A model generated the notes under the pieces. It had not been told where the DNA came from. It saw nothing but the letters and a program-made list of their open reading frames with translations, and did not search any database. A DNA stretch of 36,778 nt from a virus, in IMG/VR virus record IMGVR_UViG_3300036846_000590, positions 1 through 36,778 of that record; one strand, written 5' to 3'. Position numbers and translations under genes: made by a program. Below, piece after piece: positions 4,684 to 36,109 of this stretch. Position 1 is the stretch's first letter. Every line of letters begins with the position of its first letter.

Positions 4684-5859
4684 ATGCCGTTCCCGATCAC
4701 GACAATCGATGCCAATGGTGTCACTGTTCCGCTGTTTACCGATGTCCTGGCCTATTTGCAGCAACAGTACCAGACCGTGTACGGGTTCGATGTCAACCTG
4801 TCCGAAGATACACAAGACGGGCAGTGGGTCGGTATCATTGCGTCCGCGCTTAATGACACTAACATGACGATTGCCGCGACCTACTTGGCCTACAGTCCGT
4901 CCTTTGCGGTTGGGGCCGGGTTGTCGAGTGTCGTCAAGATCAACGGTATCCGGCGGCAACTCGCCTCATTTAGCACTGCCATTGTTACTTGTGTCGGTAC
5001 CGCCGGTACGGAAGTCGGTGGTAGTCTTATCGGTGACAACCTGAATTTGGGTACACAGTGGCAATTGCCTCCGCAAGTCACTATCCCCCCGGAAGGTGAT
5101 ATCGCGGTGACAGCGACCTGCACGACACTCGGCGCTATACCGGGTGATGTGGGTACGCTCACCATAATTTTGACACCGGTTCCCGGCTGGCAGACAGTGA
5201 ACAATATCCTGGCCGCGATTGTCGGTGCGCCGATTGAAACCGATGCGCAGTTACGCCGTCGTCAGACACAAAGCGTGGCCAACCCGTCACAGAGTATTGT
5301 TCTGGGTATCCAGGGGGGCATCGAGAACCTGCCAAACGTGCGGCGAGTGATGGTGTACGAAAACCCGACCGGCGCGCCGGATGCGAACGGTATCCCCGCG
5401 CACGCGATGGCAGCGGTGGTCGAGGGTGGTGACGCCACGGACATCGCCACCGCCATCGCACTGCGAAAGACACCGGGATCACCGACCTACGGTACCACCA
5501 GTACCATCATTTACGACAGCCGGGGTATCCCGGCACAGATCAATTATTTTGAACTGTTCCTGGTACCGATACAAGTCAATATCACCCTCAAGGCGCTGGC
5601 GGGGTTCACCCAGGCGATTGAACAGGAGATCGTCAACCAGATCATCGATTTCCTGATAACCCTGCCGATTGGTTACGATTCCTACATCACCAAATTGATC
5701 GCGGCGACACAGTTACCGGAACCCGATGGACTCACTTATGATGTGACGGTTGTACAGCAATCGCGCGATGGTAACGCGACCGCTGCAACGGATGTTCTCA
5801 TCTCGTACATCGAGGCGGCAACCTGCGACGACACAATGATCACCATTACCGTGACCTAG
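4684..5859 (+). CDS. J: Baseplate J-like protein
   Basis: 391 residues starting MPFPITTIDANGVTVP. The order of features is that of the baseplate J / Mu gp47 family: an N-terminal helix before YLQQQYQTVYGFDVNLSEDTQDGQW, a helical segment ending near GIRRQ, a beta-rich domain (residues ~95-170), the conserved IVGAPIETDAQLRRRQTQSV stretch, and a C-terminal domain starting after VRRVMVYEN. It forms the wedge that links the central hub to the tail periphery in contractile tails. It starts 3 bases after the gp46-like gene. Length is normal for the family and there is no sign of damage. Confidence 0.9.
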   Translation: MPFPITTIDANGVTVPLFTDVLAYLQQQYQTVYGFDVNLSEDTQDGQWVGIIASALNDTNMTIAATYLAYSPSFAVGAGLSSVVKINGIRRQLASFSTAIVTCVGTAGTEVGGSLIGDNLNLGTQWQLPPQVTIPPEGDIAVTATCTTLGAIPGDVGTLTIILTPVPGWQTVNNILAAIVGAPIETDAQLRRRQTQSVANPSQSIVLGIQGGIENLPNVRRVMVYENPTGAPDANGIPAHAMAAVVEGGDATDIATAIALRKTPGSPTYGTTSTIIYDSRGIPAQINYFELFLVPIQVNITLKALAGFTQAIEQEIVNQIIDFLITLPIGYDSYITKLIAATQLPEPDGLTYDVTVVQQSRDGNATAATDVLISYIEAATCDDTMITITVT

Positions 5860-19983: not shown

Positions 19984-20002
19984 GTGACCCCTAGTTGGTC
20001 AC
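19984..20002 (-). promoter_or_regulatory. Leader hairpin with CTAG loop
   Basis: Arms GTGACC and GGTCAC around CCTAGTT, between a terminator and the Shine-Dalgarno of the gene starting at 19969. Member of the cassette family described in the findings. Confidence 0.7.
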
Positions 20003-20012
20003 GCAAAAAGAA

Positions 20013-20040
20013 AACCCCCGGCATCTCGGTGCCGGGGGTT
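20013..20040 (-). terminator. Intrinsic terminator after the 127-residue gene
   Basis: Perfect arms AACCCCCGGCA (20013-20023) and TGCCGGGGGTT (20030-20040) with AAAAAGAAAA on the left as the leftward U-tract. Confidence 0.85.
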
Positions 20041-20061
20041 ACCTCTACCACAGTTCCGCAG

Positions 20062-20445
20062 TTACGCCGACTCCGCTTCCTGCGGGGCGTTTTCCAGTAG
20101 CTCGATATGTTCGGGTTCGGGTTGGTCCGGCAGATCGGGAACATCGACCTCTTCCAGTTCCAACCCCGCCCATTCACCGATCCACTCTTGGTACGCTTGC
20201 CCGGCGTCACCGTCCTGCCACTTCTCGGAGCGTTCGTCAAAGTAGTCCTGCATCTCCTGGGTGATACCGTCACGCCATTCGGTGACAGAAGCGAGAGCAC
20301 TGTTGTACTCACCGATCGCAGTGGTGAGATCGTCGTGTGCCCCTTCAAACCGCGCCCACGCGTCATCGATTTCCGCCTTGTGGGTGGCAAGCGCGGTGAC
20401 GTGGGCGGTAAGCTCGGCTAGTTGTGTCTTGCTCAGCTTCTTCAT
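20062..20445 (-). CDS. Acidic coiled-coil hypothetical protein
   Basis: 127 residues from the ATG at 20445 (MKKLSKTQLAELTAHV) with GGAAGGAGTAAC upstream; a longer frame runs through the leader hairpin and is rejected. Residues 1-75 are a long helix (TALATHKAEIDDAWARFEGAHDDLTTAIGEYNSAL); then EKWQDGDAGQAYQEWIGEWAGLELEEV and a strongly acidic Pro-rich tail. A negatively charged helical protein of this kind could mimic DNA or bind a partner, but no family is recognised. Confidence 0.7.
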   Translation of the reverse strand: MKKLSKTQLAELTAHVTALATHKAEIDDAWARFEGAHDDLTTAIGEYNSALASVTEWRDGITQEMQDYFDERSEKWQDGDAGQAYQEWIGEWAGLELEEVDVPDLPDQPEPEHIELLENAPQEAESA

Positions 20446-20459
20446 CGTTACTCCTTCCA

Positions 20460-20475
20460 GTGACCCTAGTGTCAC
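20460..20475 (-). promoter_or_regulatory. Leader hairpin with CTAG loop
   Basis: Arms GTGAC and GTCAC around CCTAGT, between the terminator 20481-20514 and the start at 20445. Confidence 0.7.
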
Positions 20476-20480
20476 GCACA

Positions 20481-20514
20481 AAGTAACCCGGTCACCGAAG
20501 TGACCGGGTTACTT
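20481..20514 (-). terminator. Strong terminator hairpin, possibly bidirectional
   Basis: Perfect 15-base arms AAGTAACCCGGTCAC (20481-20495) and GTGACCGGGTTACTT (20500-20514), loop CGAA. Both sides carry short A/T runs, so it could act on either strand; minus-strand genes end on its right. Confidence 0.85.
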
Positions 20515-20769
20515 TTAGCATACCGGGGGTAGCGGCGCTAGGGCGTTTTGTTCCCAGCGCACGATGTTACGGAACTTCGTCGTGACCATGATCGCAGTGG
20601 TACCGTCACGCGGTAATTTGCGTTCGCAGAGCCTTCCGTGCGCGAAGTAGCGGACAAAAACATGCGGCCGATCGGTCCACGCCTTGTGGATGCGATATTC
20701 ACCGTCGTGCCAGTTGATGATGCCGTCATCGCGCCACCCCTCATTGATCATTCTCTGGTGTTGGTTCAT
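20515..20769 (-). CDS. Small hypothetical protein
   Basis: 84 residues, MNQHQRMINEGWRDDGIINWHDGEYRIHKAW... with GGAGGAGG before the ATG. Aromatic and basic residues suggest a compact beta domain (HVFVRYFAHGRLCERKLP). It overlaps the upstream gene by 29 bases and ends next to the terminator. No family recognised. Confidence 0.7.
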   Translation of the reverse strand: MNQHQRMINEGWRDDGIINWHDGEYRIHKAWTDRPHVFVRYFAHGRLCERKLPRDGTTAIMVTTKFRNIVRWEQNALAPLPPVC

Positions 20770-20947
20770 TGCCTCCTCCTCGTTTGATCACCTCGGTGGT
20801 GATGTCGAATTTCGACAGCCGTACCCGTTTCATGTTGGGGTATACGGTCCACGCCAGATTTAGGTACACCATCGCCTCCTCCCGGCTGTTGAACGTGCGT
20901 TCCGCAGCCGGGATGTTTTTGTCGGTCAGTCGCCATTTAGTGATCAT
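20741..20947 (-). CDS. Small hypothetical protein
   Basis: 68 residues, MITKWRLTDKNIPAAERTFNSREEAMVYLNLAWTVYP..., ending in a flexible Gly/Pro/Glu stretch. The NSREEAMVYLN helix is typical of small phage proteins with a 'SREEAxxYL' lead. It overlaps its upstream neighbour by 4 bases and its downstream one by 29. No function known. Confidence 0.65.
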   Translation of the reverse strand: MITKWRLTDKNIPAAERTFNSREEAMVYLNLAWTVYPNMKRVRLSKFDITTEVIKRGGGNEPTPENDQ

Positions 20948-21126
20948 GCCTCCTCCTCAATGAATCGAGCGGTACCGACCCGGTTACCGTTGATGTCAAA
21001 GATCGGCCACGGTGGCGGTTCGTGCTCGATTTGATCGGCCAGTTTGCGCAGCAAGCTCGCAACCTCGGCTTCCGGTATCGGCTCAAAGGCCGAGTTGTCA
21101 CAGTCGATTTCAAGCGTGAATTTCAT
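20944..21126 (-). CDS. Small conserved-looking phage protein
   Basis: 60 residues from ATG at 21126 (MKFTLEIDCDNSAF). The pattern with a beta strand, an EAEVASLLRKLADQIE helix and a C-terminal FDINGNRVGTARF hairpin is familiar from other phages with no function assigned. A CTAG occurs in the leader beside the Shine-Dalgarno (CCTCCTAG on the plus strand). Confidence 0.75.
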   Translation of the reverse strand: MKFTLEIDCDNSAFEPIPEAEVASLLRKLADQIEHEPPPWPIFDINGNRVGTARFIEEEA

Positions 21127-21136
21127 CGTCGTCCTC

Positions 21137-21214
21137 CTAGTGGAACATACCATTGAACAGGTACAAGGCGATGGCCAAAGGTATCGCCATGAATATAAGG
21201 TTCGTCGCGGTCAT
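21137..21214 (-). CDS. Very small hydrophobic peptide
   Basis: 25 residues from ATG at 21214, MTATNLIFMAIPLAIALYLF followed by NGMFH: a short polar start, then a single membrane span. GAGAGG lies five bases upstream of the ATG. It is plausible as a membrane micropeptide because of the good ribosome site and its place at the head of the operon 20515-21214, but codon statistics cannot be judged on 25 codons. Confidence 0.45.
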   Translation of the reverse strand: MTATNLIFMAIPLAIALYLFNGMFH

Positions 21215-21255
21215 TTTGTCCTCTCGGTATCCGGCGGATTGCTGACACCAAAAGG

Positions 21256-21283
21256 AAACCCCGCCAGTTGCCCGGCGGGGTTT
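21256..21283 (-). terminator. Intrinsic terminator after the secreted Cys-rich gene
   Basis: Arms AAACCCCGCC (21256-21265) and GGCGGGGTTT (21274-21283) with an A-rich left flank. It separates the operon 20515-21214 from the gene that ends at 21289. Confidence 0.8.
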
Positions 21284-21288
21284 GAGTG

Positions 21289-21693
21289 TTAGCGCCATTC
21301 CCGATGAACGCTTTCCTCTTCGCATACCCATTTATTGTGCGGGATCGCGGGTTCGGCGTGACAGTGATTTTCGACCCAGATTCCGGCTGAACTGTTACCG
21401 TCACCTCCCATGTGTCGATAGTCGCCGATGATCAAATCCATCGCCGCGTCGTAACGCTCTTCCGGTACCTTACAGGTGTGGATAACATCGTCGGTTTGCT
21501 GCGGTTTGTGGTTCCAGAAGTGGATACATTCCCATTCTTTGTAGACAAGTCCCTGGTAGAGTTCTACCGGTGCCTTCTGGCCGGGCGCGTCCAATGCGCA
21601 CAACTGTCCGGGATTAGCTACGCTGCACATTACAGCATGGGCGGGGGACAGCGTCATCAGGGTGAGCGCGATCCCGGTAATGAGTGACTTCAT
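21289..21693 (-). CDS. Secreted cysteine-rich protein
   Basis: 134 residues from ATG at 21693. The first 20 residues form a Sec signal peptide (MKSLITGIALTLMTLSPAHA), cleaved after AHA or slightly beyond. The mature protein carries seven cysteines (MCSV, QLCAL, WECIHFW, HTCKV, NHCHAE, WVCEEE plus neighbours) compatible with disulphides in the periplasm. No family recognised. It is alone between two terminators with its own hairpin leader. A phage-encoded periplasmic protein of this kind may be a superinfection or lysis-related factor, which is a guess. Confidence 0.75.
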   Translation of the reverse strand: MKSLITGIALTLMTLSPAHAVMCSVANPGQLCALDAPGQKAPVELYQGLVYKEWECIHFWNHKPQQTDDVIHTCKVPEERYDAAMDLIIGDYRHMGGDGNSSAGIWVENHCHAEPAIPHNKWVCEEESVHREWR

Positions 21694-21707
21694 CGTTGCT
21701 CCTTTCA

Positions 21708-21723
21708 GTGACCCTAGCGTCAC
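21708..21723 (-). promoter_or_regulatory. Leader hairpin with CTAG loop
   Basis: Arms GTGAC and GTCAC around CCTAGC, 14 bases upstream of the start at 21693. Confidence 0.7.
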
Positions 21724-21732
21724 ACCAAAAGG

Positions 21733-21760
21733 AAACCCCCGGCGGTGAAGCCGGGGGTTT
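21733..21760 (-). terminator. Intrinsic terminator
   Basis: Perfect arms AAACCCCCGGC (21733-21743) and GCCGGGGGTTT (21750-21760); ends the gene at 21775. Confidence 0.85.
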
Positions 21761-21774
21761 TGGGTAGTGAAGTG

Positions 21775-22212
21775 TCACTCCAGTCCGTAGATTTCCGGGT
21801 TGGCGAGGCGACGTAACACCATGTCGTGACACAAATCGAGTTGGAATGTGTCGAGTTCCCCGCCGCTGACCTCGTCGCACAAGTCACGAATCATGTCGAG
21901 GGGTGGCCTGCGCTTTGCCACCTGATCGGCGATCGGCGCGAGCTTGGTGTGGAGTCGCTTTGTGGTACTCATCAGTGATTCCCTTTCGAGTTTCTCGGTT
22001 TTCAGGTTGAGCTTGGCGGGTCTGGTTCTGAACTCACCCACCTGTACATACACCGGGTCCAGCCGGTTACCGTAGTCATCGACTTCGTAGAACCACTGGA
22101 TGATGTCATCCACAAGGTTCCCCCATTCCGCCCAGACGTGGACCCAAGGTTCACCTTCGGGTTTGTAAGTGAGCCGACAGTACTGTTGTCCGTTTTCCAG
22201 ATACCGTTTCAC
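21775..22212 (-). CDS. Hypothetical protein
   Basis: 145 residues from GTG at 22212 (GGAGGTGCC directly before); a longer frame would read back through the leader hairpin and terminator and is rejected. The N-terminal ~80 residues (YLENGQQYCRLTYKPEGEPWVHVWAEWGNLVDDIIQWFYEV) form an aromatic beta domain. The C-terminal part (MSTTKRLHTKLAPIADQVAKRRPPLDMIRDLCDEVSGGELDTF) is helical and could be a separate gene from an internal ATG with a weak AAGGGA site. I keep it as one gene. No family recognised. Confidence 0.65.
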   Translation of the reverse strand: MKRYLENGQQYCRLTYKPEGEPWVHVWAEWGNLVDDIIQWFYEVDDYGNRLDPVYVQVGEFRTRPAKLNLKTEKLERESLMSTTKRLHTKLAPIADQVAKRRPPLDMIRDLCDEVSGGELDTFQLDLCHDMVLRRLANPEIYGLE

Positions 22213-22226
22213 GGCACCTCCTTCCT

Positions 22227-22244
22227 GTGACGCTAGCTCGTCAC
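22227..22244 (-). promoter_or_regulatory. Leader hairpin with CTAG loop
   Basis: Palindrome GTGACGCTAGCTCGTCAC, arms GTGACG/CGTCAC, 14 bases upstream of the GTG start at 22212. Confidence 0.75.
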
Positions 22245-22254
22245 ACACTAACAC

Positions 22255-22286
22255 AAAACCCGGCGAGCCGAAGCCCGCCGGGTTTT
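22255..22286 (-). terminator. Intrinsic terminator (twin of 22664-22693)
   Basis: Arms AAAACCCGGCG (22255-22265) and CGCCGGGTTTT (22276-22286). Bases 22255-22284 are identical to 22664-22693. Confidence 0.85.
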
Positions 22287-22291
22287 GCGCT

Positions 22292-22627
22292 CTACAGGTT
22301 GTCGAACATCGCGAAGATGTCACTGAGCGGTGTCTGGTTATCGAACGTGTGCAACACACCACCCTGAAGTGATCTGTCACGCATTTCGATGGAGCGTATG
22401 GTGTGGTTGTAGACGAAGGCATAACGGTGATTGTTCACCGTCATCCACAACACGTTCGCCATCGAGCCGTTGAAGGTCTTGACCTCGATAGCCTCGCCTC
22501 GCCAGACGACCCCGCCAATGAGCGTCAACACAACCTGACGCACCTTGTTGGCGTGGTGACCGGCACGGTCAATCACGCCTACAGCGTACTCCTGGAGTGC
22601 GCTAATGTCACTTACGGCTAGTACCAT
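22292..22627 (-). CDS. Hypothetical protein
   Basis: 111 residues from ATG at 22627 (MVLAVSDISALQEYAVGVID) with GAGAGGAAG upstream. Residues 10-35 are helical (HHANKVRQVVLTLIGGVVWRG), then a beta-rich part (VKTFNGSMANVLWMTVNNHRYAFVYNHTIRSIEM) and a C-terminal helix (LSDIFAMFDNL). No family recognised. It is a single-gene unit between two nearly identical terminators. Confidence 0.65.
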   Translation of the reverse strand: MVLAVSDISALQEYAVGVIDRAGHHANKVRQVVLTLIGGVVWRGEAIEVKTFNGSMANVLWMTVNNHRYAFVYNHTIRSIEMRDRSLQGGVLHTFDNQTPLSDIFAMFDNL

Positions 22628-22644
22628 GTTACTTCCTCTCATCG

Positions 22645-22660
22645 TTGGTGTGTACACCAA
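22645..22660 (-). promoter_or_regulatory. Leader hairpin variant without CTAG
   Basis: Arms TTGGTGT and ACACCAA with a two-base spacer, at the same place in the cassette as the CTAG hairpins but with unrelated arm sequence. Confidence 0.5.
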
Positions 22661-22663
22661 AAG

Positions 22664-22693
22664 AAAACCCGGCGAGCCGAAGCCCGCCGGGTT
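22664..22693 (-). terminator. Intrinsic terminator (twin of 22255-22284)
   Basis: Arms AACCCGGCG (22666-22674) and CGCCGGGTT (22685-22693); 30 bases identical to the terminator 400 bases to the left. Confidence 0.8.
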
Positions 22694-22697
22694 AGTG

Positions 22698-22907
22698 CTA
22701 CTTGAACATGTGTAAAGCGGCCAGGACACTGATCGCGACGCCGATGACACTCGCCATACCGAAGACCACGACGATGATGCCGGTGAACATGGTCATGAGT
22801 GACGGTTTACTGTCGATCTTGGCTTCGAGGCGAATGATGTCGATGTGTAACTCAGTACGCATCGACATCAGATCGTTGTGTAGTGTGTCTAGTGTTACCT
22901 CGGCCAT
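22698..22907 (-). CDS. Small membrane protein
   Basis: 69 residues from ATG at 22907 (MAEVTLDTLHNDLMSMRTEL). The first 35 residues are an amphipathic helix with heptad spacing (LHIDIIRLEAKIDSK), then a C-terminal span (LMTMFTGIIVVVFGMASVIGVAISVLAALHMF). A common phage architecture for small tail-anchored or holin-like membrane proteins. GGAGGAGTGAC precedes the start, which is one base after the previous stop. Confidence 0.65.
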   Translation of the reverse strand: MAEVTLDTLHNDLMSMRTELHIDIIRLEAKIDSKPSLMTMFTGIIVVVFGMASVIGVAISVLAALHMFK

Positions 22908-22908
22908 G

Positions 22909-23385
22909 TCACTCCTCCATCTTCCGCTGACACTCTGGTCCGATGCCAATTTCGACACTCGACGGGACCGTTAAAGTTCTGCCACACCGGCCACATTTTC
23001 CAGCATGACGGACCACCATATCGGTCGGGAGGTGACCGCGCTCGACATGGTTCCAGAAGTAGACAAAGCCTTTGACGCAGGGTGCATCGGCCTTGAACTT
23101 CGCCTTGGCGGTCTGCCGGAACAGGCAGCCGTTTAGCCGGGTTTCGATCAGCCCGATGTAGTTGTAGTCACTGTCGTTGTTCGGGCCGGTCAGGACACCG
23201 ACAAACCAGCGGTTTGCCGGTTCACCGTTGTCGTCCTTGGCGCGTGCCACTTTGTAGGTGAAGTGTTTCCCGGTGCGGCGCGACTCGAGAGTGATCGTCG
23301 CGTTACCGGCAGTGGTGTACGAGGCAGCGTCAGCGGCATCGGTGAAACCGTTGACGTTGACCAAGCCGTTGTCATCGTGTGTCAT
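22909..23385 (-). CDS. DUF6011-type zinc-binding phage protein
   Basis: 158 residues. The C-terminus (HAGKCGRCGRTLTVPSSVEIGIGPECQRKMEE) is the DUF6011 signature: C-x2-C, a LTxPxSxxxGIGPxC treble-clef-like zinc site. The N-terminal part (ATITLESRRTGKHFTYKVARAKDDNG...WFVGVLTGPNNDSDYNYIGLI) is the beta domain commonly fused to it. Family function is unknown; nucleic acid binding is a common suggestion. RBS is AAGGAACC; its leader has CTAG but no perfect hairpin. Confidence 0.85.
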   Translation of the reverse strand: MTHDDNGLVNVNGFTDAADAASYTTAGNATITLESRRTGKHFTYKVARAKDDNGEPANRWFVGVLTGPNNDSDYNYIGLIETRLNGCLFRQTAKAKFKADAPCVKGFVYFWNHVERGHLPTDMVVRHAGKCGRCGRTLTVPSSVEIGIGPECQRKMEE

Positions 23386-23426
23386 CGTTAAGGTTCCTTC
23401 CTAGAATAAGGATCACACATAAAGAA

Positions 23427-23454
23427 AACCCCCGGCTCTTGCAAGCCGGGGGTT
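23427..23454 (-). terminator. Intrinsic terminator
   Basis: Arms AACCCCCGGCT (23427-23437) and AGCCGGGGGTT (23444-23454); ends the unit 23459-24154. Confidence 0.85.
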
Positions 23455-23458
23455 CCTT

Positions 23459-23674
23459 TTAAGCCTTCAGGATGACAAAATCCTCCAGGCGGTTGTAGCG
23501 GATGCGGACATGCTGGCCGGTCCAGTCACCTTTGCTGGTGTACTTGCCGTCCCAGCGGTTACCGATGTCGGCGATGAGGAAGTCCTTATTGGCGTTCCAG
23601 TCCTTTTTGACCGCTTCCTCGTCTTTGTAGTCACGCCCGTAGGCGGGAACCAAGTTCACGGCGTATGTGGGCAT
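23459..23674 (-). CDS. Small conserved-looking phage protein
   Basis: 71 residues, MPTYAVNLVPAYGRDYKDEEAVKKDWNANKDFLIADI followed by GNRWDGKYTSK and VRIRYNRLEDFVIL. The N-terminal 'MPTYxVNLVPAYGRDYK...VxxDWxxxKDF' line is one I recognise from many phages; function unknown. It ends the three-gene unit 23459-24154. Confidence 0.75.
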   Translation of the reverse strand: MPTYAVNLVPAYGRDYKDEEAVKKDWNANKDFLIADIGNRWDGKYTSKGDWTGQHVRIRYNRLEDFVILKA

Positions 23675-23683
23675 TGTTACCTC

Positions 23684-23962
23684 CTACTCGTTGATGATGG
23701 TGAGCTTCAGATCAAGGTGAGCCTTGGACTGTGACTCGAAGCGCATCAGCTTCCAGTCGCGTTGTCCCTGCACCACCTGGACAACCTCGAACACCACCTC
23801 GCCGTGGGTCTTCTCGTTGCGGATAGTGACCAACGTGTTGAAGGTGTGACCGTGACGTTGCCACAGGTTACTGAAGTACCCGACAAACGTCTTAGTCTTG
23901 GCATCGTAGGTGAACAGGGTGGCCGGGATCACCTCGTTGTGAAGTGCTTTTCTACCGGACAT
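23684..23962 (-). CDS. Hypothetical protein
   Basis: 92 residues, MSGRKALHNEVIPATLFTYDAKTKTFVGYFSNLWQRHG... a mostly beta protein (GEVVFEVVQVVQGQRDWKLMRFESQSKAHLDLKLTIINE). GAGGTACAC precedes it. No family recognised. Confidence 0.65.
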   Translation of the reverse strand: MSGRKALHNEVIPATLFTYDAKTKTFVGYFSNLWQRHGHTFNTLVTIRNEKTHGEVVFEVVQVVQGQRDWKLMRFESQSKAHLDLKLTIINE

Positions 23963-23971
23963 GTGTACCTC

Positions 23972-24154
23972 CTAAAGTTTCATCATCAGCCGCTGCGCAG
24001 CAAACAGTGCCTGTTGCGCCTCGATCAGCTTGGTGACAATCTCGTCCGGCAGTTCGAGCGGCTGCATCGATGCCTTGGCGCGGACGATCAACTTGCTGAT
24101 CGTTTCGCCAGCATCGAACATCGTGCCGTAGGCAGCTTTTTGTAACTCGTTCAT
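23972..24154 (-). CDS. Small helical hypothetical protein
   Basis: 60 residues, MNELQKAAYGTMFDAGETISKLIVRAKASMQPLELPDEIVTKLIEAQQALFAAQRLMMKL, two helices joined by a Pro/Leu turn. Its leader has CTAG directly at the Shine-Dalgarno (CCTCCTAG on plus). No family recognised. Confidence 0.65.
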   Translation of the reverse strand: MNELQKAAYGTMFDAGETISKLIVRAKASMQPLELPDEIVTKLIEAQQALFAAQRLMMKL

Positions 24155-24184
24155 GTGTACCTCCTAGCAGGTTACACATAAAGA

Positions 24185-24212
24185 AACCCCCACCGGTCAC
24201 CCGGCGGGGGTT
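24185..24212 (-). terminator. Intrinsic terminator
   Basis: Arms AACCCCC plus CCGG (24185-24196, one-base bulge) and CCGG plus GGGGGTT (24201-24212). Ends the gene at 24218. Confidence 0.8.
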
Positions 24213-24217
24213 GGTGT

Positions 24218-24613
24218 CTAATCATTGAAGTCCCACGGGAGCGCGCTCCACGCTTCCGAGTGCTGAACCACGCCGCCGAGTTTCTTGGCCCACTGTTCGG
24301 TCAGAGCTTCGCTGATCGCGTCCAGTTCCTGGTACAGCGGCTTCTCGGGCACGTTGCCCTCGCTGCACTGGTAGATCAGGCACTCCAGCGCCTTGAACTG
24401 CGCGAGCGTGGTGTCGTCCTGGTGCTCGCGGTGTTTGTAGGTGAACCGCGTTGGCTTGTCATTGTACCGCTGGCGTAACGCTTCCATGTTGAGCCGGTAC
24501 AGCCGGGCACCAAACTTGTCGGCGTTGTCACCTTCGATCGCTTGGTTGCGGAAGGCAAACACTAGACTGACGACACGATCGATCGTCCCGTCGCTGACCA
24601 AAAATGCTGACAT
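24218..24613 (-). CDS. Hypothetical protein
   Basis: 131 residues; the second of two adjacent ATGs (24613) is preferred because it sits five bases after GGAGG. The sequence MSAFLVSDGTIDRVVSLVFAF... with RLYRLNMEALRQRYND and a C-terminal LGGVVQHSEAWSALPW is a pattern I associate with small phage proteins. Mostly helical and acidic. No function known. It is a single-gene unit with a full hairpin cassette. Confidence 0.75.
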   Translation of the reverse strand: MSAFLVSDGTIDRVVSLVFAFRNQAIEGDNADKFGARLYRLNMEALRQRYNDKPTRFTYKHREHQDDTTLAQFKALECLIYQCSEGNVPEKPLYQELDAISEALTEQWAKKLGGVVQHSEAWSALPWDFND

Positions 24614-24628
24614 CATTACCTCCGTTTA

Positions 24629-24646
24629 GTGACGCTAGATCGTCAC
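24629..24646 (-). promoter_or_regulatory. Leader hairpin with CTAG loop
   Basis: Arms GTGACG and CGTCAC around CTAGAT, ahead of the start at 24613. Confidence 0.75.
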
Positions 24647-24655
24647 ACATAAAGA

Positions 24656-24682
24656 AACCCTCCCGGTCTGACCGGGAGGGTT
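24656..24682 (-). terminator. Intrinsic terminator
   Basis: Perfect 12-base arms AACCCTCCCGGT (24656-24667) and ACCGGGAGGGTT (24671-24682). Confidence 0.85.
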
Positions 24683-24689
24683 CTGTGTG

Positions 24690-25052
24690 TCACTTAGGCT
24701 CGACGCCACCAGTGGGTAGCAGCTTGGCGACGATCTCCTCGCCAAGCTCAGCGGTACCGTCCTCAACACCGCCGTTGATCGCCCGGCAGATAAACTGCCA
24801 GACATACGGATCGGTGATGTCGCGTTCGGTGTCCTCACTGTCTTGCGCACTGCGCCGCCGGACCACGATGCTGGCGGTCGGCTTCTTTTGCCGCTCATCA
24901 GTGTTGTAGTCGTAACCGGCGCGGAGCGGGTGATTCGACCACCCGAACCCGTTGTGCTTGCCCGGTTCCCAATCCGGCGGGAACATCTCGCCGACATTGA
25001 GCAAGTGAATCTCGTAGCTCTCGTTCGGCGTCTTGATCGTCAGTACCTTCAT
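24690..25052 (-). CDS. Hypothetical protein
   Basis: 120 residues, MKVLTIKTPNESYEIHLLNVGEMFPPDWEPGKHNGFGW... then a basic/acidic stretch (DERQKKPTASIVVRRRSAQDSEDTERD) and a helical end (WQFICRAINGGVEDGTAELGEEIVAKLL). GGAGG lies close before the ATG. No family recognised. Single-gene unit. Confidence 0.65.
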   Translation of the reverse strand: MKVLTIKTPNESYEIHLLNVGEMFPPDWEPGKHNGFGWSNHPLRAGYDYNTDERQKKPTASIVVRRRSAQDSEDTERDITDPYVWQFICRAINGGVEDGTAELGEEIVAKLLPTGGVEPK

Positions 25053-25064
25053 CGTACCTCCTTA

Positions 25065-25082
25065 GTGACGCTAGATCGTCAC
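25065..25082 (-). promoter_or_regulatory. Leader hairpin with CTAG loop
   Basis: Arms GTGACG and CGTCAC around CTAGAT, 13 bases upstream of the start at 25052. Confidence 0.75.
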
Positions 25083-25091
25083 ACATAAAGA

Positions 25092-25122
25092 AACCCCCGG
25101 CACCCTATAAGTGCCGGGGGTT
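25092..25122 (-). terminator. Intrinsic terminator
   Basis: Perfect arms AACCCCCGGCAC (25092-25103) and GTGCCGGGGGTT (25111-25122). Confidence 0.85.
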
Positions 25123-25126
25123 GGAG

Positions 25127-25375
25127 TTATTGCCAATCCCTCTCCCATCGCTTGGCGGCGGCGAGTGCCGATTCGAGCGTAGCGTGCCAGGACAATGCCG
25201 CGCCGTAGTAACTGTTGGCTCGCTGAACAAAGAATGGGCGCTTGCGCCGCTCGGTGACCCAACGGCTCTTCCAGCGTAGTGACTGGTGCGCGACGACAAA
25301 CCCGATCTTGCCCTTTACATCGGGCCAGCGGATGGTGTCGGTGGCACCGGGGGTGCCCTCGATAACGCGGATCAT
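25127..25375 (-). CDS. Small hypothetical protein
   Basis: 82 residues from ATG at 25375 (MIRVIEGTPGATDTIRWPDV); the ATG shares its A with the upstream TGA (TGATG). The end (AALSWHATLESALAAAKRWERDW) is a basic amphipathic helix and the middle is beta-rich (GKIGFVVAHQSLRWKSRWV). No family recognised. Coupled with the gene at 25375-25671. Confidence 0.65.
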   Translation of the reverse strand: MIRVIEGTPGATDTIRWPDVKGKIGFVVAHQSLRWKSRWVTERRKRPFFVQRANSYYGAALSWHATLESALAAAKRWERDWQ

Positions 25376-25671
25376 CAGAAGCCCTCCTTTTCGAGCATGG
25401 CAAGCTGACGCTTGGTGGCGTAACCGCACTCGCGGGCGTCGTAAGCCCGGCGCAGCGCGTCTTCCCGTTTGGCGGTGTGACCGGAACGCCGCTCTTCGAC
25501 GGTGAACCGGCGACCCCAATCATCGGTGTAGGTCTGACCGACCTTCATCGAGGAATAGAAATCGGCATGCAAGCCGAGTTCCCAGAACATCGCGTCGAGC
25601 GCGGCCTGTTGGGTCTGGTAGACTTTGGTATGAACACCGTCTTCGGCTCGATTGATCAGAACGTAAGACAT
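25375..25671 (-). CDS. Hypothetical protein
   Basis: 98 residues from ATG at 25671 with AGGAG seven bases upstream. The sequence MSYVLINRAEDGVHTKVYQTQQAALDAMFWEL... contains a short beta lead and a later basic helix (RRFTVEERRSGHTAKREDALRRAYDARE). No family recognised. The leader upstream (25672-25834) is unusually long for this region. Confidence 0.65.
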   Translation of the reverse strand: MSYVLINRAEDGVHTKVYQTQQAALDAMFWELGLHADFYSSMKVGQTYTDDWGRRFTVEERRSGHTAKREDALRRAYDARECGYATKRQLAMLEKEGF

Positions 25672-25711
25672 CACTGATTCTCCTTTGTGTCATCGTGTTT
25701 CACGGCAGCGT

Positions 25712-25770
25712 CGAGTGGACTCGGCTTCTTAAGGGAGCGGAACGGCGTCACTGTTGCCGGTGAACCGGCG
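25712..25770. promoter_or_regulatory. Palindromes in a long leader
   Basis: The 160-base gap between the start at 25671 and the terminator at 25835 contains CGAGT/ACTCG around GG (25712-25723) and GCCGGT/ACCGGC around GA (near 25757-25770). No long frame with a ribosome site is present; it may hold a promoter or operator. Confidence 0.4.
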
Positions 25771-25834
25771 GCGAGTGTTAGTCGCCTTATTGAGGTAGCA
25801 GGTTCGCAGTTTCGTTGCTGTCACTTAAAGCAAA

Positions 25835-25860
25835 ACCCCCGGTCACGAATGACCGGGGGT
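25835..25860 (-). terminator. Intrinsic terminator
   Basis: Arms ACCCCCGGTC (25835-25844) and GACCGGGGGT (25851-25860), AAAA to the left. Ends the gene at 25866. Confidence 0.8.
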
Positions 25861-25865
25861 GGGTG

Positions 25866-26072
25866 TTACCAGCGATTCAGGCTGGCGTTACCAGCATCGT
25901 TCACCCACGCCTTGATGATGTCGGCGTTTTGGTTGATGCTGCGCAGCGTAAGCTCCAGGTTATGCAGCGACAGGCTGTCGGTGGCGTTCAGGTCTTGCAG
26001 TGCCACAACCTCGTTGGCAATCTTGAGCGCGGCGCGCAGGACGGATGCCGTGCTCTTTAGGTCGTGTCGCAT
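25866..26072 (-). CDS. Small helical hypothetical protein
   Basis: 68 residues, MRHDLKSTASVLRAALKIANEVVALQDLNATDSLSLHNLELTLRSI..., a two-helix protein ending AGNASLNRW. AAGGAGT precedes the start, which is 6 bases after the previous stop. No family recognised. Confidence 0.65.
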   Translation of the reverse strand: MRHDLKSTASVLRAALKIANEVVALQDLNATDSLSLHNLELTLRSINQNADIIKAWVNDAGNASLNRW

Positions 26073-26078
26073 TAGTCA

Positions 26079-26417
26079 CTACTCCTTTTTCTGGTCAGGG
26101 GTCTTGCGGGCGGCGACCCGCACGCTGGCCTTGCGCACCGATTCCTTGGAGTGCTCGGCGACCCAGTCGTCACCCATCTCGGTTTTGATGAGATCGGCAT
26201 CGAGTGATGTTACCGCGCACTCCGCGACGATCGTCGCGGTGTACAGGTGACCGTCGATGTACTTCCGGTTCCCGGCCCTCGCCAGCAACTCGGCGACCGC
26301 TGCCTTCTTCTGTTTCTCGAAGTCGGCGACAACAGCGGCGAGTGAGCCGATCTTGTCAACCAGAGCGGCGGTGTCGATGCTGCCGATGTCGGCAGGTTTC
26401 TTCGTCTTGGCTTTCAT
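26079..26417 (-). CDS. Hypothetical protein
   Basis: 112 residues from ATG at 26417 (MKAKTKKPADIGSIDTAALVDKIG). The first ~45 residues are a charged helix; a beta segment (RKYIDGHLYTATIVAECAVTSLD) follows, then KTEMGDDWVAEHSKESVRKASVRVAARKT with a basic tail. This resembles small phage proteins with a 'DADLIKxEMGxxWxxxHSK' block, for which I know no function. GAAGGAG precedes the start. Confidence 0.65.
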   Translation of the reverse strand: MKAKTKKPADIGSIDTAALVDKIGSLAAVVADFEKQKKAAVAELLARAGNRKYIDGHLYTATIVAECAVTSLDADLIKTEMGDDWVAEHSKESVRKASVRVAARKTPDQKKE

Positions 26418-26431
26418 CGTTACTCCTTCGT

Positions 26432-26445
26432 GGTCCCTAGTGACC
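26432..26445 (-). promoter_or_regulatory. Leader hairpin with CTAG loop (short)
   Basis: GGTC/GACC arms around CCTAGT in the leader of the gene starting at 26417. Confidence 0.55.
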
Positions 26446-26457
26446 CACACATAAAAG

Positions 26458-26489
26458 AAAACCCCCGACACCTGGATGCCGGGGGTTTT
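26458..26489 (-). terminator. Intrinsic terminator
   Basis: AAAACCCCCG arm with an internal bulge pairs with CCGGGGGTTTT (26477-26489); ends the gene at 26492. Confidence 0.8.
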
Positions 26490-26491
26490 GG

Positions 26492-26692
26492 CTAGATCGC
26501 CTCAAGGTGACCATCGACCCAACGGTAGTTCGGCGGGTCGTCACTCTCGACAACGCGCTTGTCGCGCACCGCGAACCAGCGCAGCATCAGAGCGCAGACA
26601 TTGGCCTGGGCTTCCTCGCGGGTGGCGAAGCGGAGTTGGTTGCCAACCCATTTACCGGAACTGTCGGCGATCACTTCAGGCTTAAAGCTCAT
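26492..26692 (-). CDS. Small conserved-looking phage protein
   Basis: 66 residues from ATG at 26692 (MSFKPEVIADSSGKWVGNQLRFATREEAQANV). The line 'GKWxGNxLRFATREEAxANVxxLMxRWFAVRxxRVxESDDPxNYRW' is familiar to me as a recurring small phage protein; it is a two-layer alpha-beta fold of unknown function. GAGAGC precedes the ATG. Its leader carries a CTAG and then an 8-base-arm palindrome. Confidence 0.75.
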   Translation of the reverse strand: MSFKPEVIADSSGKWVGNQLRFATREEAQANVCALMLRWFAVRDKRVVESDDPPNYRWVDGHLEAI

Positions 26693-26726
26693 CGTTGCTC
26701 TCCTAGTTAGAGCGTTCTCGGGAACC

Positions 26727-26749
26727 CGGTGACCAACCACTGGTCACCG
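26727..26749 (-). promoter_or_regulatory. Leader hairpin variant
   Basis: Arms CGGTGACCA (26727-26735) and TGGTCACCG (26741-26749) with five-base loop. It occupies the same slot as the CTAG hairpins; the CTAG here lies next to the start instead. Confidence 0.6.
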
Positions 26750-26761
26750 ACTTCACACACA

Positions 26762-26798
26762 GAGAAAACCCCGGCACCTTTCGATGCCGGGGTTTCTC
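26762..26798 (-). terminator. Intrinsic terminator
   Basis: Arms from GAGAAAACCCCGGCA (26762-26776) and TGCCGGGGTTTCTC (26785-26798). Terminator of the next unit to the right. Confidence 0.8.
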
Positions 26799-26936
26799 TC
26801 GCCGCGAAGGAGGAGATTGTACCTCCGCGAGATGTCGGTGTTGTTCCCTCAACGCCGAAAAAGGCCGACACTTGCCGACTTGTCGGACGCGATTGCCGGG
26901 AGTGATGCACAGCTTGGACCGGCTGCCTCGCGCGGG
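26799..26936. other. Gap with an extra terminator and a possible relic leader
   Basis: About 138 bases without a convincing gene. On the minus strand the arms CCGACA/TGTCGG (26865-26886) followed by CCTTTTT form a second terminator. Further left, GCGGAGGTAC (near 26821-26830) looks like the shared GGAGGTAC ribosome site but no start codon follows, as if a gene was lost. Confidence 0.4.
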
Positions 26937-27134
26937 CTAGTTGTACTCCAGCCCGGCATCGATCATACCAGACACTAGCCCATCGGCATAGCGGTGCTCG
27001 ACAAACAGGCTGCCGCCCATCCACTGCCAGCCTTCGGACACGACGTTCTCATCGATCCATTCGCGGGCGGTGTCGGTCAGTGGGGTGATCGCGACCAGCG
27101 TGCCGTGATCAGTGACAGAGAAATCGTACAACAT
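26937..27134 (-). CDS. Small conserved-looking phage protein
   Basis: 65 residues from ATG at 27134 (MLYDFSVTDHGTLVAITPLTDTAREWIDENV). The pattern '[ML]YDFxVxDHGxLxxxxPLTDxARxWxxEN...WxGGxLxVEHRY' is one I recognise from many phages and prophages; function is unknown. It ends with LEYN. Coupled to the next gene by one base. Confidence 0.8.
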   Translation of the reverse strand: MLYDFSVTDHGTLVAITPLTDTAREWIDENVVSEGWQWMGGSLFVEHRYADGLVSGMIDAGLEYN

Positions 27135-27135
27135 G

Positions 27136-27363
27136 CTACGCACTCCTATTGGCGTGGTTTTGGGCGCAGTGCTTGCACTCAGACTGAGTGTCAATCATCA
27201 TGCCGATCTTGACCCGGCTGCGGGCGTGGCCCGGCTCCGGGTAGTGGTACACCGTGTACCATTGCGGTGCGACGGAGTGGTTGTAGGCAGGTTCAATGCT
27301 GTAGTGACCGCAATGAGTCTCGGTGGAACCCTCTTCCGACCGCTTCCATTTCAATTCGTCCAT
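27136..27363 (-). CDS. Small hypothetical protein
   Basis: 75 residues from ATG at 27363 (MDELKWKRSEEGSTETHCGHYSIEP). Two Cys/His-rich ends (THCGHYS and CKHCAQNH) could bind a metal. The WKRSEEG...SHCGxxxIEP line recurs in phage proteins, with no function known to me. GGAGGTAAC precedes the start. A CTAG hairpin is in the leader. Confidence 0.7.
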   Translation of the reverse strand: MDELKWKRSEEGSTETHCGHYSIEPAYNHSVAPQWYTVYHYPEPGHARSRVKIGMMIDTQSECKHCAQNHANRSA

Positions 27364-27375
27364 CGTTACCTCCAT

Positions 27376-27393
27376 GTGACGCTAGATCGTCAC
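27376..27393 (-). promoter_or_regulatory. Leader hairpin with CTAG loop
   Basis: Arms GTGACG and CGTCAC around CTAGAT, ahead of the start at 27363. Confidence 0.75.
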
Positions 27394-27404
27394 TATAAGA
27401 AAAA

Positions 27405-27426
27405 CCCGGTCACTTGCGTGACCGGG
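27405..27426 (-). terminator. Intrinsic terminator overlapping a stop codon
   Basis: Arms CCCGGTCAC (27405-27413) and GTGACCGGG (27418-27426). The stop of the gene at 27410-27604 lies inside the hairpin. Confidence 0.75.
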
Positions 27427-27604
27427 CTGGTATGAGGCGGACACCCTTCGCGGCGTACCGCTCGATTAGCCGAAGGAATGCCTCGGCTGAACGCTCGGTG
27501 TCGGAACTCCACCGGGCGTGGGTGATGATCCGGTCGTAGGCTTCGCGCACCGCGCGGTCCACGATGTAACCGGATTCATCGGTGATTTTGATAGGGTCAG
27601 ACAT
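27410..27604 (-). CDS. Small hypothetical protein
   Basis: 64 residues, MSDPIKITDESGYIVDRAVREAYDRIITHARWSSDTERSAEAFLRLIERYAAKGVRLIPARSRK. The end is helical and basic. GGAGGTAAC precedes it, two bases after the previous gene's stop. No family recognised. Confidence 0.65.
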   Translation of the reverse strand: MSDPIKITDESGYIVDRAVREAYDRIITHARWSSDTERSAEAFLRLIERYAAKGVRLIPARSRK

Positions 27605-33850: not shown

Positions 33851-34286
33851 GATTCTAATAGGAGAGCATTTCATAGCGGCTCAATCGCCAGGAGCCGGGG
33901 CCACCCCCGCGCAGAACCTCGCTGGCAGCAATCCGGCTACAGACCCAACACCGGAGGGTCACCGGGACCGCCGCACCTAGTAGCGTTGTTACCAAAAGGA
34001 CGTAGCGCGTCACGGTGTGACGGACATGCTTGACTCCCGGTGAGTGACCGACCTTGCCGCCGGGAGTGATTACCGTGTGTTGTGGATTGGCGATAAACCC
34101 CGGAGTTAGGCACACCGCCGGGTACCAAGTTATTGGTCAGCTAGGGTCGGTTAGTGACTCGGTGGGTGGCTCCGACGATCATAGCCATAGAGTCACAAAT
34201 CTCCTCTAAAGGGAGATTTGTGATCTGATGGGTTCACCAACGATCATGTATCAAGTGAAAAGTTACTCAAAGTGAGGGAGAAAACG
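33851..34286. other. Divergent non-coding region
   Basis: About 435 bases without a supportable gene. Inverted repeats: CGTCAC/GTGACG around GGT (34008-34022), ACTCCCGG/CCGGGAGT (34033-34067) and a perfect 12-base hairpin (34193-34223). CGATCAT occurs twice (near 34176 and 34241). Likely holds the promoters and controls for both divergent blocks, possibly replication signals. Confidence 0.5.
34193..34223 (+). promoter_or_regulatory. Strong leader hairpin before the rightward operon
   Basis: Perfect 12-base arms TCACAAATCTCC (34193-34204) and GGAGATTTGTGA (34212-34223) around a seven-base loop TCTAAAG. No T-run follows, so it is not a standard terminator; it may be an operator, an RNA leader or an attenuator 64 bases upstream of the start at 34287. 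Confidence 0.6.
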
Positions 34287-34744: not shown

Positions 34745-36109
34745 ATGCGTGTCGATCTCAGACAGGCCCAGGACAACTCTTGCCGTGACTTCACCATCGA
34801 TCCCATCGATGACGCGATTGTCGATGCACTCTTCAAATCAATCGAGGAGCATGGGTTCTGGCTAGGCATCGTGCTCTGTATGCGGAACGGTGTCATCTAC
34901 ATCGTCGCCGGTCACCACCGGGTCCGTGCCGCACTTAAGGCCGGTTACACCATCGTAGACCTACCGGTTGGTAAGTATGACGACGCGACTATGATTCGCA
35001 TCTACGCGCGTGAGAATGCCACGCAACGTGGTGGTACCGGTACGGCGTTGGCGGGATCGGTGGCGAGCGCGCTGCGGTATCTGACCAAAAGGCTACTGAC
35101 CGGGGGCGACCTATCCCTAAAGTTGGATAACGCTGACGACGATGATCGCGATGATAATCTAGGCCAAATTCAGCCTAGATTATCATCGCGAGCAATCGAA
35201 GTCGCGTTAGGCAACTTGAAGTCGGGTGATGGTATTGGTTGGAGATGGGTCCACGCCTTTTTGTCGGATGTGCCGGGGATTAACGAGAGTTCCATCAAAC
35301 AGCAAACCGCCAATTTTAAGGCATCCGGTGACTATAAGCGGATTATTGGAGAGATTGAATCCGAGATCGCGCGCGAGGCGGAAGAGGCTGAAGCGGAACG
35401 CGAAGCCGCCGCTGAACGGGCGCGGTTGGCGCAGGAAGAAGAGGAACGCCTTGAGGCGGAAGAGGCGGAACGCCAAGCTGCCAAAAAGGCACAGGAACTC
35501 GAAGAGGCGAGCGAGACAGCACAGGAAGCCGCGACGAACGCCGGTAAACACGAACGGGTGTTCGATCTCGCCGGGGTTCAGCGCCACCTGACGGTTCCCT
35601 ATCACGTCGAATGCTTTCGCAAGGCAGTCATCAAACTGACCGATATCTCGGTACCTGTCGATAAGCAAGCGGAACTCGCCGCTATGCTGGTCACCTACGC
35701 GCGTGACAATAATTGGGAGTTCACTGGTAACTTCATCAAAGATTACATCTCGGTCAAGGCACAGGAAGTCATGGGCCGGATCAGGGTCGAGAGTCTCGAA
35801 GAGAAACGGCGGCGGTTGGAACGTGACATCCTATTGCAAATCAAAACTCATCAGGAAGAGTTTGTCCGACATATGAGTCACATACTCCGTGTCGGTGTCG
35901 ATATCCGTGACTGGTTGCGTAAACATCCCAAGATTGATTTCCCTGTGCAACTGGAGTTCCGTGACGTTGTGACAGATGCAAGAGACATCATCAATGAACT
36001 AGCGGAGGAATTTGGTCATGGCGACAAAGACCCAAAACGTCCAAGTCGTAAATCGAAAGCCCAGAGTCAAAATAATCGACCCCCAAAAGCCCTGGGACAC
36101 GCCCCATGA
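34745..36109 (+). CDS. ParB-like nuclease-domain protein
   Basis: 454 residues from ATG at 34745 with GAGAGGGTGG upstream (two GTGs nine and six bases earlier are less favoured). Residues 1-110 contain the ParB/sulfiredoxin-like N-terminal fold: ALFKSIEEHGFWLGIVLCM...YIVAGHHRVRAALKAGY and later IYARENATQRG, the GHHR and ENxxQR boxes. ParB proteins use this fold to bind CTP or nick DNA. A long Glu/Ala-rich coiled coil (~215-275) and a helical C-terminal domain follow; the HTH of chromosomal ParB is not obvious. A perfect 19-base inverted repeat lies inside at residues ~134-150. Likely roles are DNA-binding regulation or genome segregation, as inferred from the family. Confidence 0.75.
   Translation: MRVDLRQAQDNSCRDFTIDPIDDAIVDALFKSIEEHGFWLGIVLCMRNGVIYIVAGHHRVRAALKAGYTIVDLPVGKYDDATMIRIYARENATQRGGTGTALAGSVASALRYLTKRLLTGGDLSLKLDNADDDDRDDNLGQIQPRLSSRAIEVALGNLKSGDGIGWRWVHAFLSDVPGINESSIKQQTANFKASGDYKRIIGEIESEIAREAEEAEAEREAAAERARLAQEEEERLEAEEAERQAAKKAQELEEASETAQEAATNAGKHERVFDLAGVQRHLTVPYHVECFRKAVIKLTDISVPVDKQAELAAMLVTYARDNNWEFTGNFIKDYISVKAQEVMGRIRVESLEEKRRRLERDILLQIKTHQEEFVRHMSHILRVGVDIRDWLRKHPKIDFPVQLEFRDVVTDARDIINELAEEFGHGDKDPKRPSRKSKAQSQNNRPPKALGHAP
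35146..35191. repeat. Perfect 19-base inverted repeat inside the ParB-like gene
   Basis: Left arm TCGCGATGATAATCTAGGC at 35146-35164, loop CAAATTCA, right arm exactly complementary at 35173-35191. Both arms are coding in the ParB-like frame (residues around DRDDNLGQIQPRLSSRA). The repeat contains CTAG. Confidence 0.9.

Follow-up and report, generated by a model that had tools for sequence, protein, structure and literature searches.

A long palindrome with covarying arms inside a phage ParB-like gene: a candidate product of template switching

Palindromic sequences within genes have been described in several different contexts. The first parS site of B. subtilis lies inside spo0J, and one parS site can suffice, while Rickettsia palindromic elements consist of palindromic sequence carried in frame within a gene. 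In metagenomes, fold-back chimeras also occur. A further source is template switching during DNA replication, a mechanism established under Ripley's model in phage T4 and at E. coli hotspots (PMC7202029). Template switching creates and maintains perfect stems, and covarying stems arise from it with no need for the two arms to mutate separately (PMC8794818). It is known both to lengthen arms and to homogenise them, coding genes included (PMC7202029, PMC8604942); homogenisation has been described for inverted-repeat arms in yeast coding genes (PMC8604942). Covarying arms are usually taken as proof of a functional hairpin. The locus described below, which combines covarying arms with signs of an inverted copy in a coding gene, offers a case for separating mutational upkeep from selection.

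The locus lies in an incomplete phage record of 36,778 bp from IMG/VR, the whole of which was analysed (hereafter, the window). In common with spo0J parS, it presents a single palindrome inside a parB-type gene, but its sequence is unrelated to parS, no ParA was found, its arms are much longer and binding is putative. Rickettsia palindromic elements likewise sit in frame in a gene, whereas the window is without dispersed copies. As in phage T4 rIIB and E. coli thyA (PMC7202029), an imperfect inverted repeat occupies a coding gene with arms seemingly perfected by copying, although here the history is inferred from two diverged genes, includes a 51-nt in-frame insertion, and resolves no single event. 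Similarly, perfect inverted repeats lie in ORFs of yeast, with both protein and arms changed, yet in the yeast cases drawn on the ancestors are known at strain level and most arms are shorter, reaching 16 bp (PMC8604942). The palindrome is of a known kind; what follows confirms and extends an earlier observation and reports covariation, while any function is putative only.

The host gene encodes a ParB-like protein in which a ParB_N-like domain is followed by a helical region, a coiled coil and a C-terminal helical domain (an AlphaFold run from two sequences, with a mean pLDDT of 44, was used for rough helix layout only). The match to PF02195, the ParB N-terminal domain, scores 21.8 bits, under the Pfam gathering cut-off of 26.3, and several ParB phrogs match the gene product, the best being phrog_723 (E 5e-8). 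Within the window, tail genes occupy the left side, helicases of DnaB-like and SNF2-like type are encoded in a leftward block, and from ~34.2 kb on there is a rightward block that includes the ParB-like gene. A related phage (G001) is 88-98% identical to the window in long aligned blocks up to ~33.9 kb but is without the ParB-like gene, other genes replacing the rightward block. A second phage, G002, is more distant and carries the ParB-like gene (locus L010), followed as in the window by the same downstream gene. L010 is the single relative of the protein that we found (about 50% identical): scans of IMG/VR (with the protein, two alignments and the DNA pattern AGHHRVRAA) and of GTDB (two alignments), together with phage/plasmid tblastn, returned none besides it. 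Neither tRNA genes nor Rfam families were matched in the window. Elsewhere in the window, a minus-strand gene at 17605-18720 matches the transposase family phrog_4285; its G002 counterpart is 80% identical, and the gene seems to be an established member of this phage group's gene set, not a recent arrival.

A sequence-only reading of the window had reported a perfect 19-base inverted repeat with an 8-base loop at 35146-35191, within the coding DNA of the ParB-like gene, and had considered it unlikely to be due to chance. Arms and spacer are confirmed at these positions, in frame within the ORF, and the similarity of the arms continues outward beyond what that reading noticed. The features of the locus are as follows:

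34745..36109, plus strand: ParB-like gene, 454 aa (PF02195 E 2e-4; phrog_723 E 5e-8)
35105..35155, plus strand: 17-codon (51-nt) stretch without L010 counterpart, holding the outer left arm (protein alignments)
35120..35145, plus strand: decayed continuation of the left arm on its outer side (reverse-strand self-match, flank alignment)
35146..35164, plus strand: left perfect arm, 19 bp, TCGCGATGATAATCTAGGC
35156..35181, plus strand: core dyad homologous with L010 AACCTTGTCGAAATTTCGACAAGGTT (L010 counterpart at 5557-5582, minus strand)
35165..35172, plus strand: spacer CAAATTCA, 8 nt, with the dyad centre in ATT codon 35168-35170
35173..35191, plus strand: right perfect arm, 19 bp, GCCTAGATTATCATCGCGA, continuing into the conserved RAIE coding stretch
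35192..35217, plus strand: decayed continuation of the right arm on its outer side, coding AIEVALGNL (reverse-strand self-match, flank alignment)

This is the longest perfect inverted repeat of the whole window, the runner-up being a 16-bp repeat at 20480-20515, among intergenic terminator-like hairpins. Chance and codon bias are excluded as its source: synonymous-codon randomisation of the gene (n=60) gave longest arms of 5-9 bp, against the 19 observed, and with the peptide fixed all 19 positions were paired in 0 of 200,000 randomisations (best 18). Comparison of the region with its own reverse strand by blastn delimits an imperfect palindrome of 98 bp (35120-35217) with 82% self-match. The flanks outside the perfect arms are alike beyond chance (0/3000 shuffles; with 60-nt flanks, a local score gave 0.002).

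The sequence-only reading had proposed looking for homologues that keep the repeat with covarying arms, and L010, the sole homologue found, answers positively. Its gene contains a different, 26-bp perfect palindrome, AACCTTGTCGAAATTTCGACAAGGTT, which has no spacer, shares its central ATT codon with the palindrome of the window, and is the only non-terminator repeat of such strength near the gene; with the L010 peptide fixed, its 13 positions were fully paired in 0.13% of synonymous randomisations. The register between the two genes was set by protein alignment (NL..I..R being common to both). Among the nine core pairs in common, six are identical, three are changed on both sides (T-A/C-G, A-T/T-A and G-C/T-A) and none is broken; synonymous changes (AAT/AAC, CTA/CTT, AGA/AGG) account for two of the three on the left arm and one of the three on the right. 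Three complete matched pairs would arise from six randomly placed substituted sites with a chance of about 2e-4, and sliding the partners by 1-3 columns destroyed the pairing pattern, while a column-shuffle gave 65/500, a weak control since there are just two sequences. Given the common codon at the centre, and three of nine core pairs changed on both sides with none broken, we infer that the dyad was inherited and kept paired while its letters changed. Two sequences cannot tell mutation from selection as the cause.

In BLAST and MAFFT alignments alike, the window's protein has a 17-residue in-frame insertion directly left of the core. The outer left arm falls inside this insertion, whereas the right arm runs into the conserved SRAIE stretch. 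When the right arm is read antisense and in register, the resulting peptide, FKLPNATSIARDDNLG, agrees with the left-arm peptide LKLDNADDDDRDDNLG at 10 of 16 residues. The simplest account of these sequences would be that the right arm was copied inverted, seeded at an older short dyad. Perfect inner arms beside decayed outer ones suggest later re-matching or constraint, although the contrast (Fisher p 0.014) is biased, the inner part having been selected for being perfect.

We consider it somewhat probable (roughly 0.55) that template switching in DNA replication both gave rise to the repeat, as a quasipalindrome, and has maintained it. The starting state would be an ancestral short dyad at the ATT codon, where the strand being synthesised would have folded back or jumped strands in the lineage of the window. 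Copying of the right arm, the conserved RAIEVALGNLK coding stretch included, would have added about 51 nt without shifting the frame, giving the long left arm; the insertion falls in a poorly conserved part of the protein and is presumably tolerated there. Thereafter the outer part would have drifted, and the inner 19 bp would have been kept or re-perfected by repeated arm-to-arm copying, with no regulatory role required. This origin is favoured by the coincidence of the outer left arm with the 17-aa insertion and by the resemblance of LKLDNADDDDRDDNLG to antisense FKLPNATSIARDDNLG; it would explain the inverted duplication, the changed arms and the exact Watson-Crick pairing, for G-U pairs occur in neither stem, as is expected from arm copying. 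As in quasipalindromes, the window's inverted repeat has a short spacer and arms that match beyond chance, and arm changes are mirrored (3/9 core pairs, in two sequences). Perfect inverted repeats also exceed the codon-shuffle null in 3/3 related phages, an excess inflated by spurious ORFs overlapping terminators. Against template switching, the window and L010 are too diverged for reconstructing single events, the polarity of the change (whether the window gained the stretch or L010 lost it) is read from self-similarity alone, and selection would give maintained pairing equally. Furthermore, the central pairs of the spacerless L010 dyad are out of reach of simple fold-back, and inter-strand switching or chance is needed there. 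A template-switch origin leaves room for the site also having a function.

The main alternative, possible but doubtful in our estimation, is that the ParB-like protein binds the dyad in its own gene, as a candidate operator or single centromere-like site; through such binding the protein would act as a repressor of the operon or become loaded onto the phage's DNA, and the site would diverge with the protein's specificity. A dyad kept while its sequence changed, in a ParB-like gene, fits this, as do the full 26-bp palindrome of L010, its position where the L010 helix-turn-helix is expected (NLVEISTRFDMPTRAIETLRGQI, assigned by eye), and the precedent of spo0J. If true, phages would here offer a case in which a protein and its site have diverged in step. 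The stronger form, in which a putative self-encoded site lies near the likely DNA-recognition part so that both diverge within one stretch, appears rather unlikely. Arms of 19 bp with decayed extensions exceed the length that a dimer site needs, and the ParB_N match is below the Pfam cut-off. A partition role in particular is unsupported, and the parS-like candidate of the sequence-only reading found no backing: neither palindrome has another copy in the window, G001 or G002, canonical parS-like sites do not rise above chance in the window and have 3 mismatches at best in G001 and G002, and the ParA-type family PF13614 is absent from the window, G001 and G002 (14/14 controls detected; the window record is incomplete). 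Nothing points to its proposed recombination site either, the only integrase found being that of G001, which is without the ParB-like gene.

Selection for an mRNA hairpin that slows ribosomes or steers transcript processing or decay is unlikely. The strand around the palindrome, folded alone, is very stable (-38 kcal/mol, z -9.5) and the homologue keeps the pairing, but the minus strand folds too, G-U pairs are missing from both stems though third codon positions permit them, and the central pairs of L010 leave little or no loop; nor is there an Rfam match, a T run after the site or a gene boundary at it. Relative to L010 the window does carry a palindromic in-frame insertion, as a small mobile element of the Rickettsia type would; this origin is nevertheless very improbable, given that no further copy exists in the window, G001 or G002, that L010 bears a palindrome of its own there, and that conserved protein-coding sequence forms part of the arm. 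An arm 16-mer does occur in six IMG/VR contigs, but with unrelated flanks and no second arm. Least credible is an assembly or amplification chimera of the fold-back kind met in metagenomes: the ORF is intact across the site, the outer arms are diverged rather than identical, and the independent record of L010 has a dyad at the same codon.

Other repeats occur in the three phages. Dyads of the form GTGAC-(C/G)CTAG-GTCAC lie just upstream of many leftward small genes (window 20460, 21708, 22227, 24629, 25065, 27376, 27854 and also 19984), recur conserved in G001 and in partly altered form in G002, and probably serve as leaders or operators; CTAG is otherwise scarce in these phages, with 57 occurrences in the window where 138 are expected. 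The CTAG in the arms had been likened to these leader hairpins, a link that is not supported, as the L010 palindrome has CTTG and the leader dyads are otherwise unrelated in bases. Between the divergent operons, the window has an inverted repeat at 34193-34223 (TCACAAATCTCC-7-GGAGATTTGTGA), and near the corresponding place G001 has one of unlike sequence (G001:C1:34154-34178, GTAATCCCCC-5-GGGGGATTAC); both are perhaps operators or terminators. Perfect repeats with 11-bp arms lie in or beside rightward-operon genes of G001 (C1 37493-37514, 42889-42910 and 35511-35544). Two of them, the loopless 22-bp palindromes at 37493 and 42889, have 8 of 11 half-site bases in common, and that at 42889, directly after the integrase gene, could be a terminator. 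Finally, small leftward genes are arrayed over 20000-27450 of the window, and after every one of them comes a strong hairpin resembling a terminator (AAACCCCCGGC type).
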